Below, one piece after another: positions 2,560-10,300 of a stretch of 20,783 nucleotides of DNA (positions within the stretch are counted from its first letter, which is position 1; every line of letters starts with the position of its first letter). The stretch is from a virus. Made by a program: the position numbers and the translations under genes. The notes under the pieces are model-generated. The model was not told the origin of the DNA, did not search any database, and saw nothing but the letters and a program-made list of their open reading frames with translations. The stretch spans positions 1-20,783 of IMG/VR virus record IMGVR_UViG_3300046836_000470; one strand, given 5' to 3'.

Positions 2560-2565
2560 ACAAAA

Positions 2566-2597
2566 CGCCCCGCCTTTCAGCGGGGCGCTTCGTTTCG
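2566..2597. terminator. Bidirectional terminator between convergent operons
   Basis: 8-bp GC stem CGCCCCGC / GCGGGGCG (2566-2573 and 2580-2587) with loop CTTTCA. A T-containing tail follows on the plus side (CTTCGTTTC), and TTTTG follows on the minus side (AAAA at 2562-2565). It lies between the rightward integrase unit and the end of the leftward late operon, as expected for a shared terminator. Confidence 0.75.
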
Positions 2598-8863: not shown

Positions 8864-9549
8864 TTACCTGTCCTCTCCGGTGACGTCCCTGATGCCGATG
8901 CCTGCCAGGTCGGCGCGGCTTGGCTTACGGACGGGCTCCGCGACGCCCGCCGCATGCGCGAGCCTCGTGATGTGACGCACCTGATCCTTGCCTTCCAGGT
9001 GCGGGTGTGATGCGGCGGCACGCGCCAGCATTTCTTCCTCGGCTGCGAGCTTCGGCATCATCGACCAGCAGGCGTCTACGATCGGCCTGGGGAGGTCGAG
9101 CCACTGTCGGACTCCTCCTCCGTAGAAGCGAGCGAGCCGAGCGAGCTGTTCGTCAGTTGTGCCACGAGATCCGGCCCCAGCGCCGTCTGCGTCGCCAGCC
9201 CGGCACCTACGAAAAAACGCACCGCCAGACTCCGCTTCGCGATGGCCGAAAGGGCCGCGACGGCGGTGGCGGGTGCGTCAGGGATCAGCTTCTGGGTCAG
9301 GTCGTTCGCCAGCTTCTCGAGGCGCTTGTCCTCGGCGGCCGTGCGCTTCTCCTTTTCCCAGAGTTCGTCGTGGTCGGTGTAGATCCGCGTGATGCGCGAG
9401 AGCTCGAGCGTGCCGATCTCCTCGGGGACGAGCAGTTCGAACGTCTCGTCGTGCTCGACGACGGCGTCGTCGACGATCTCTGCCCAGCGGATGCGGGCCA
9501 GCGGGTGCTCTGGCGCCAGCGCGTTCAGATCGAGAATCTCAGTTGCCAT
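8864..9549 (-). CDS. Tail assembly chaperone GT, made by -1 frameshift
   Basis: Join of 9549-9211 and 9211-8864 on the minus strand. The ribosome slips back one base at T_TTT_TTC and continues in an open frame to the TAA at 8864. The product is about 113 plus 115 residues (228 aa). After the slip, the new frame has no stop codon and soon gives protein-like sequence: TTDEQLARLARFYGGG, then QWLDLPRPIVDACW, then PKLAAEEEMLARAAA. A separate start at the internal ATG 9061 would discard that sequence and has no good ribosome site. In other siphoviruses G and GT together load the tape measure and guide tail-tube assembly. Known family logic plus the visible slip site make this firm. Confidence 0.85.
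9076..9549 (-). CDS. Tail assembly chaperone G
   Basis: 157 residues, the main (unshifted) product of the chaperone gene. Acidic N-terminal half (LDLNALAPEHPLARIRWAE, 7-25), then a charged helical stretch (about 60-90), and a tail ending STSPGRS. It lies between the major tail region and the tape measure, exactly where lambda-type G genes lie. The ATG at 9549 overlaps the end of the upstream 62-residue gene by 11 bases. The slippery heptamer is at codons 112-113 (Phe-Phe). Residues after that point are low-complexity (S/E-rich) and overlap the shifted frame, as expected when selection acts mainly on the -1 frame there. Confidence 0.8.
   Translation of the reverse strand: MATEILDLNALAPEHPLARIRWAEIVDDAVVEHDETFELLVPEEIGTLELSRITRIYTDHDELWEKEKRTAAEDKRLEKLANDLTQKLIPDAPATAVAALSAIAKRSLAVRFFVGAGLATQTALGPDLVAQLTNSSLGSLASTEEESDSGSTSPGRS
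9211..9217 (-). promoter_or_regulatory. -1 ribosomal frameshift site T_TTT_TTC
   Basis: Six A then G read backwards on the plus strand give TTTTTTC on the minus strand, in the exact X_XXY_YYZ register of the G frame (CGT TTT TTC GTA). After a -1 slip the next codon is CGT at 9211-9209 and the frame is open to 8864. The sequence after it is GC-rich, so a stimulating structure is plausible but was not modelled. Confidence 0.88.
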
Positions 9550-9727
9550 CTGTGTCTCCTCCTTCAGGGACTTGGATGCCGATGTCGGCGAGGCGCTCCA
9601 GGAAGGCAGCCCGGCGCATCGCGTCGCGGGCCGCCTTCCGGTGCTGAGACGACAGGCGCTTGTGGTCGCGTGCCGTCTCGCGAAGAGCCTCCACCGTCTG
9701 TGCGATTGCTGTGACGGGGTTGGTCAT
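9539..9727 (-). CDS. Small helical protein between tail tube and chaperones
   Basis: 62 residues, highly charged and helix-forming (ALRETARDHKRLSSQHRKAA), with a short acidic C-terminus. No family is recognised. It lies between the major tail protein and the chaperone gene and overlaps the latter by 11 bases, so translation is likely coupled. The start at ATG 9727 has no Shine-Dalgarno directly upstream; instead GGGAGG lies before a perfect hairpin, which when folded gives a 6-base spacing. Expression may therefore depend on RNA folding and on ribosomes finishing the major tail gene. Confidence 0.6.
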   Translation of the reverse strand: MTNPVTAIAQTVEALRETARDHKRLSSQHRKAARDAMRRAAFLERLADIGIQVPEGGDTDGN

Positions 9728-9733
9728 GGAGTC

Positions 9734-9759
9734 AGCAGATCAGCTGATCTGCTCCTCCC
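9734..9759 (-). promoter_or_regulatory. Hairpin between Shine-Dalgarno and start codon
   Basis: Perfect 20-bp palindrome at 9734-9753 (half-site AGCAGATCAG). As RNA it can fold into an 8-bp stem with an AGCU loop. On the minus strand GGGAGG (9759-9754) sits directly before it, and GACTCC (9733-9728) plus ATG directly after it. It also spans the TGA stop of the major tail gene (9742-9740). No U-run follows, so it is not a standard terminator. Confidence 0.6.
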
Positions 9760-10300
9760 AGGTGCCGTAGCCGAGCGTCGGATCCTCGATCGAGTCGAAC
9801 TTGAGGGACAGCATCGCGGGGACGCCCTCACCGGCGTAGGCGGGGGCGGCCGTGCCGTCCTCGATCGCGATTGGGAGGAAGTATTGCGCGGCGAACGCAT
9901 CGTTGACCGGGCTGAGACCACGGGCCAGCAGTGCCACCTGGGCCACGGTCGCGCCCTGCTCGAGCGGGATCGACTTGGCGTTGCCGGACGTGGTGACGGT
10001 CGCCGTGTTGAGCGCGTAGGCGTACTGCTCGGCGGTCAGATCGATCAGATCGACCTCGACGGAGATGAACTCCTCGACGCGCCATGCCTTGCGATGCCCG
10101 GTGCCGCCGGCGGGGCGCCACTTGGTGATCGTCTCGTTATGGGTGACGACGACGCCCTTGGTGCCGTAGTTCTTCGGGCCGCTCGTGCCGAGCTTGACCC
10201 AGGCGCCCGAAGGGGCGACGTTGATCGCCGGCTTGGCGGTGCCGACCGGCGCTGCAAAGAGCGTCAGCGGGGCGGCGATGACTTCGTACGGTGCGGGCAT
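9740..10300 (-). CDS. Major tail (tube) protein
   Basis: 186 residues. A beta-rich tail-tube candidate, with blocks such as WVKLGTSGP (34-42) and VEEFISVEVDLIDLTAEQ (about 75-92) and a C-terminal ending in LGYGTWEEQIS. Size and position, directly upstream of the chaperones and downstream of the tail-completion genes, match the major tail protein of siphoviruses, which polymerises into the tail tube around the tape measure. The ATG at 10300 has a strong purine-rich GGAGTAAGGA upstream, in line with high expression. No catalytic motifs. Confidence 0.78.
   Translation of the reverse strand: MPAPYEVIAAPLTLFAAPVGTAKPAINVAPSGAWVKLGTSGPKNYGTKGVVVTHNETITKWRPAGGTGHRKAWRVEEFISVEVDLIDLTAEQYAYALNTATVTTSGNAKSIPLEQGATVAQVALLARGLSPVNDAFAAQYFLPIAIEDGTAAPAYAGEGVPAMLSLKFDSIEDPTLGYGTWEEQIS

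Follow-up and report, generated by a model that had tools for sequence, protein, structure and literature searches.

In genes 38 and 25 of phage T4, hairpins between the Shine-Dalgarno (SD) motif and the start codon reduce a long linear spacing from 22 to 5 nt and from 27 to 11 nt, respectively, and both cases have mutational and probing support (PMC3014915, its references 108 and 109). A second type of structured site is represented by the T4 genes e and soc and by mobE of phage Aeh1, in which the SD is closed in a helix, i.e. inhibitory structures are present at otherwise usable sites (PMC3014915). The third type comprises the gene pairs VII/IX of phage f1 and coat/lysis of MS2, in which the start codon lies near the upstream stop codon and the initiation region is contained in a hairpin that is opened by the upstream ribosome. 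A review describes both translational coupling at short distances and hairpins that are unfolded by the upstream ribosome (PMC12548453).

The distance between the stop and the start codon limits coupling. In reporter tests, a gap of about 20 nt almost abolished coupling, and a small set of E. coli genes starts near +10 from the upstream stop (PMC10666635). Coupling has also been reported to be weakened by RNA structure that closely follows the stop codon (PMC12548453). Here, we describe a phage junction that shares single features with all three types of sites and compare it with the corresponding junctions of its relatives.

Anatomy of the junction

The window, i.e. the whole stretch of DNA that was analysed, is a 20.8-kb virus record with a GC content of 67%. 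The upstream gene of the pair (9740..10300, minus strand) encodes the major tail (tube) protein of 186 aa, as judged from the list of open reading frames (ORFs), homology, and gene order. Its product is 42-46% identical to the annotated “major tail protein” of Microcystis phage Mwe-Yong1 and of the Sinorhizobium phages Aussie and StopSmel. The downstream gene, p62 (9539..9727, minus strand), encodes a basic protein of 62 aa and was recognized from the ORF list and from homologues at the same place. The gene order is tail terminator, tail gene, small ORF, two chaperone-position ORFs, and tape measure. The first of the chaperone-position ORFs (157 aa; 9076..9549, minus strand), for which the function is assigned from position only, starts inside the end of p62 and has a strong ordinary SD, AAGGAGGA, with a spacing of 7 nt. 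The second one (9061-8864, minus strand) lacks a SD at its ATG, which lies 14 nt past the stop of the first (window 9061-9079); it may also be coupled, or it may be reached by frameshifting.

On the minus strand, the stop/start junction reads ACCTGGGAGGAGCAGATCAGCTGATCTGCTGACTCCATGACC. The tail gene ends with TGG GAG GAG CAG ATC AGC TGA; TCTGCTGACTCC and the p62 start codon ATG (9727-9725) come next, so that the distance from the tail-gene stop to the p62 start is 12 nt. An alternative start of p62 can be ruled out, because in close relatives the protein similarity begins exactly at this ATG. The proposed SD, GGGAGG (9754..9759, minus strand), is part of the tail-gene codons TGG GAG GAG (Trp-Glu-Glu). 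It is followed by the perfect palindrome AGCAGATCAGCTGATCTGCT (9734..9753, minus strand), which contains the TGA of the tail gene (9742-9740), and by the six-base spacer GACTCC (9733-9728). The spacing from GGGAGG to the ATG is 26 nt in linear form and 6 nt with the inner hairpin folded. The region between the tail-gene stop and the p62 ATG of the window contains no SD. These elements had been described in an initial annotation, and we found all of their positions to be correct to the base. The palindrome had been reported there as one of 20 bp; it is indeed perfect and 20 nt long, but its two arms of 10 nt amount to 10 bp.

Predicted folding and accessibility of the SD

As RNA, the inner hairpin is predicted to form a stem of 8 bp with a 4-nt AGCU loop and an energy of -11.0 kcal/mol. 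The minimum-free-energy fold extends beyond it: outside of the inner stem, GGAG (9758-9755) is paired with CUCC (9731-9728), directly 5′ of the ATG, and the full predicted hairpin thus covers 9728..9758 of the minus strand. In folds computed for the RNA alone, the probability of the GGAG:CUCC pairing was 0.92-0.99 in sequence contexts of 35, 91, 151, and 241 nt, and about 0.8 in a context of 341 nt.

The initial annotation had placed a hairpin between the SD and the ATG, and this hairpin is present. The outer arm had been overlooked, which alters the interpretation: because GGAG is paired with CUCC, folding would hide the SD, the reverse of a looped-out arrangement. The assumption that folding brings a usable SD to a distance of 6 nt is not supported by the prediction, according to which the core of the SD is paired rather than exposed. 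The same computation left the SD of T4 gene 38 (AAGGA) mostly free, with a probability of about 0.98 for AGG to be unpaired; for T4 gene 25, the SD was roughly one-third to one-half free. The predicted cost of freeing the SD of p62 is about 7.7 kcal/mol. To open everything from the SD to +15 would take 22.6 kcal/mol, the highest value of the seven gene starts compared, which is partly due to the length of the stretch. The folded hairpin is predicted to close the only SD-like sequence. Because partial pairing is likewise predicted for the SDs of several other genes of the phage, which is rich in GC, a predicted occlusion does not decide the question by itself.

Probable coupling of p62 translation to the tail gene

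A profile search with the tail protein yielded 48 viral and 7 cellular loci, whereas a search of cellular genomes with the tail protein alone had yielded no matches. With a p62 profile, the small ORF was detected behind the tail gene at most of these loci; pattern and profile searches with p62 matched only the two close relatives, and tblastn of p62 in GenBank phages gave no match. The p62 homologues at the same place are 87-92% and 36-39% identical to the window protein. In total, 39 distinct tail-gene/p62 junctions were obtained, i.e. the window and 38 others. A conserved ORF of 60-odd residues (motif AR-x-HK...HR-x-AAR) separates the major tail gene from the gene after it in three GenBank phages, whose records do not annotate it (L038:4606 onward, MZ436628; L039:4609 onward, OR786373; L040:4609 onward, OR786374).

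The closest relatives are L001/L045 (89% identity of the tail protein, 92% of p62) and L004/L046 (83% and 87%). They retain both genes and the WEEQ end of the tail protein and lack the palindrome. The tail-protein motif GTWEEQ is retained in two close relatives, with GGGAAG replacing GGGAGG in one of them. The junction of L001 reads GGGAAGAGCAGATCAGC TAA AGGCTGACGACAAC ATG and has a weak AAAGG in the gap, and that of L004 reads GGGAGGAGCAGACCTCG TAA GAGGAGACCAC ATG, with a normal GAGGAG that precedes the start codon by five bases. GGGAGG thus corresponds to the Trp-Glu-Glu codons and is also found in L004, which has another SD. Palindromes longer than 10 nt around the stop codon were found at none of the 38 other junctions with a p62 homologue, and the mean folding z of these junctions is -0.04. 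The gene is thus kept without the palindrome at all 38 junctions, including those of the two closest relatives, an outcome that the initial annotation had itself named as contradicting its proposal. Compensatory changes in the stem, which had been suggested as a check, are not seen either, as the hairpin is absent from L001/L045, from L004/L046, and from 36 further junctions.

In contrast to the palindrome, the proximity of the two genes is a feature of the family. In 37 of the 38 junctions with an assigned start (of 39, the window included), p62 starts between -4 and +18 nt relative to the tail-gene stop, and many starts overlap the stop codon as ATGA or TGATG. Only 3 of 38 p62 starts are preceded by an SD with an energy of -6 kcal/mol or lower at a distance of 3-12 nt, compared with 15 of 33 starts of the next gene at the same loci. 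The median SD strengths at this distance are -2.2 kcal/mol for p62 and -5.8 kcal/mol for the next gene (paired Wilcoxon, p = 2e-6, a value that is indicative because the loci are related). All SD energies were calculated with the standard anti-SD sequence assumed for the host. Most genes of the window have strong ordinary SDs, and because other genes of the phage mostly use such motifs, the missing SD at p62 is informative.

The reading that we favour, with moderate confidence, is that p62 is translated mainly by coupling to the tail gene, i.e. by termination-reinitiation, and that the window carries in addition a lineage-specific hairpin that could only block independent entry. The hairpin encloses the TGA of the tail gene, as had been noted initially, and because the stop codon lies within the structure, a ribosome that finishes the gene necessarily has to open it. 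The terminating ribosome, not yet fully released, would then restart at the ATG 12 nt downstream. GGGAGG lies 8 nt ahead of the final sense codon of the tail gene, which would occupy the P site during termination, and may help to retain this ribosome by pairing with the 3′ end of the 16S rRNA. Without a ribosome, the hairpin would close, the outer arm GGAG:CUCC would hide the SD, and independent entry at p62 could only drop. The hairpin might also influence the ratio of the two proteins; the initial annotation had suggested a low ratio of the p62 protein to the tail protein.

The start at +12 is within the range in which coupled genes are expected, i.e. overlapping the upstream stop or within about 20 nt of it. 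Judged by the reporter tests of PMC10666635, a gap of 12 nt is nevertheless long for reinitiation, towards the upper end of what works, and the reported negative effect of structure just downstream of a stop codon also counts against coupling here. With the f1 genes VII/IX and MS2 coat/lysis, the junction shares the short distance and an initiation region within a hairpin that would be opened by the upstream ribosome. It differs in that we infer coupling from the anatomy and the family comparison, and in that the relatives appear to couple without a hairpin; only in this phage does a predicted hairpin span the SD, the upstream stop, and the gap. On the basis of the sequences compared, the best reading is that coupling is the family-wide arrangement, to which this lineage has added the hairpin.

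Origin of the palindrome

Unlikely on balance, yet the most serious of the alternatives, is that the palindrome is functionless and recent. It could have arisen by chance, or a templated (quasi-palindrome) mutation could have placed a copy of the conserved tail-gene end in the non-coding gap; p62 would be coupled regardless. This would agree with the family comparison, in which coupling does not seem to depend on it. One arm is fixed by the tail-protein codons (EEQIS-stop), which are common to L001, and the other arm is a gap sequence found only here: L001 has AAAG at the place of GATCT of the window, and GCTGAC to the right is kept. Compared with L001, the change from AAAG to GATCT together with a new CTCC end may have completed an inverted copy of the coding arm, as far as a single comparison can suggest.

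The palindrome alone is not beyond chance. AGCAGATCAGCTGATCTGCT is the longest perfect palindrome of the window (the runner-up has 16 nt), but palindromes of at least this length occurred in 9% of dinucleotide shuffles of the window. The full inverted repeat, GGAG-AGCAGATCAG / CTGATCTGCT-CTCC, with 10 + 4 pairs around a 1x2 interruption, was matched in only 3 of 400 shuffles. Thus, what lies beyond chance is the larger unit with the SD, and this extension, together with its location exactly on the stop-start junction, argues against a functionless repeat, although a templated mutation could explain both properties. As to stability, stretches of 35 nt that are at least as stable are predicted at 40 separate places on the minus strand, and the folding z is -1.0 (versus shuffles) in the 91-nt context, no better than shuffles, and -2.8 (mononucleotide shuffles) in a 60-nt window around the stop. 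The predicted energy of the hairpin is therefore not exceptional for a genome with 67% GC. The palindrome is known from one contig, in which an assembly error is possible.

The proposed looped-out ribosome-binding site

The initial proposal corresponds to an accommodated site, in which the folded inner hairpin would separate GGGAGG from the ATG and make 26 nt act as 6 nt. The reduction from 26 to 6 nt is within the range of the T4 examples (PMC3014915), and a stable hairpin lies within the long linear spacing, as in T4 genes 38 and 25. The state with a free SD and an intact inner hairpin is predicted to be 6.6 kcal/mol above the ground state, which is less than the 9.2 kcal/mol gained by pairing of the SD with the 16S rRNA, so that a minor looped-out mode would be thermodynamically reachable. 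We nevertheless regard this mechanism as improbable. The outer arm is predicted to pair the SD core in all five contexts (P of at least 0.8), whereas the SD of T4 gene 38 is free beside its hairpin. In addition, GGGAGG is coding sequence, and L004 has the same GGGAGG and a normal GAGGAG in the gap. Lastly, the hairpin is found in none of the relatives compared and is not conserved by compensation among the closest ones, whereas the stem of T4 gene 25 is conserved in about 30 T-even phages (PMC3014915). Restriction to one lineage alone is not fatal, as the gene 25 arrangement is also limited to close T-evens, though to about 30 phages. Considering the predicted accessibility of the SD and the closest relatives, we do not assign the junction to the accommodated sites. 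The inhibitory structures at T4 e, T4 soc, and Aeh1 mobE are likewise different, as the SD of the window is, in linear form, too far from the ATG even when it is free.

A related and quite doubtful version is a two-state, translation-gated site, in which a terminating ribosome or a 30S subunit would open just the outer four pairs, while the inner hairpin with the stop codon stays folded and docks the SD at 6 nt. If true, the stop codon of the upstream gene would be part of a looped-out ribosome-binding site, with an outer arm that hides the SD in the closed state.

Structure and divergence of the p62 ORF

At fourfold sites, p62 (window 9727-9542, minus strand; L001:1932-2117; L004:10190-10375) shows about half or less of the divergence of the tail gene. 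In the three pairwise comparisons, 8/35, 6/32, and 3/33 sites differ in p62, versus 36/100, 39/95, and 33/98 in the tail gene (Fisher p of 0.21, 0.03, and 0.006). The 186-nt ORF is also predicted to fold more strongly than its codon permutations (z of -4.8, -3.3, and -3.8 for the window and the two closest relatives), beyond all 29 control tiles of the window (lowest value -3.0), with strong predicted hairpins at 9679-9645 and 9637-9603. Across the three sequences, two base pairs of the fold were retained although both partners had changed, at two others one partner differs, and another four no longer pair in one or more of the relatives. A conserved RNA hairpin within p62 throughout the family was considered and rejected, because with a proper codon pool p62 was no more structured than its neighbours at 38 loci. 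The pattern, seen in three sequences, could reflect an RNA element of a small clade or a recent gene exchange.

The hairpin at the junction and the structure in the following ORF could together act as a stabiliser of the mRNA 3′ end, or decay boundary, so that the abundant message of the tail gene is favoured over downstream ones. That a stable hairpin lies just where a presumably highly expressed gene ends, and that p62 as a whole folds unusually well in the window and its two close relatives, is compatible with this role. The relatives have no such hairpin at the same junction, p62 is locally not more structured than its neighbours in the family given codon choice, and a terminator-like site is lacking, which makes this explanation very improbable. 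A transcription terminator was rejected, as the stem is not followed by a T run, and the junction has no match to a known RNA family in Rfam. Elsewhere in the window (2560-2594, minus strand), a hairpin of 15 bp with a T-rich 3′ end (GTTTTGT) and a predicted energy of -27.6 kcal/mol, the strongest 35-nt fold on the strand, looks like an intrinsic terminator.

A repeated DNA-binding site was also rejected, because AGCAGATCAGCTGATCTGCT has no other copy in the window, even with up to three mismatches allowed, and, beyond the IMG/VR record itself, is not matched exactly in the viral contig collection. In the window, p62 is in frame with the tail gene (TGA plus 4 codons; 9725-9742, minus strand), and read-through would give a fusion protein. 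As a family trait this was rejected, since the stop-start distances of the closest relatives (+14 and +11), like many others, are not multiples of three.

Implications

A striking local pattern of an SD, a hairpin, and a start codon can mislead when relatives and the accessibility of the SD are not checked. The comparison also revealed a small conserved ORF, located between the tail-tube gene and the chaperone-position genes, that had been missed in GenBank records. If the hairpin acts, it would be a clean natural case that separates the unfolding and the reinitiation models of translational coupling, since among close relatives the gene pair is maintained whether or not a hairpin is present and whether or not the gap contains an SD.
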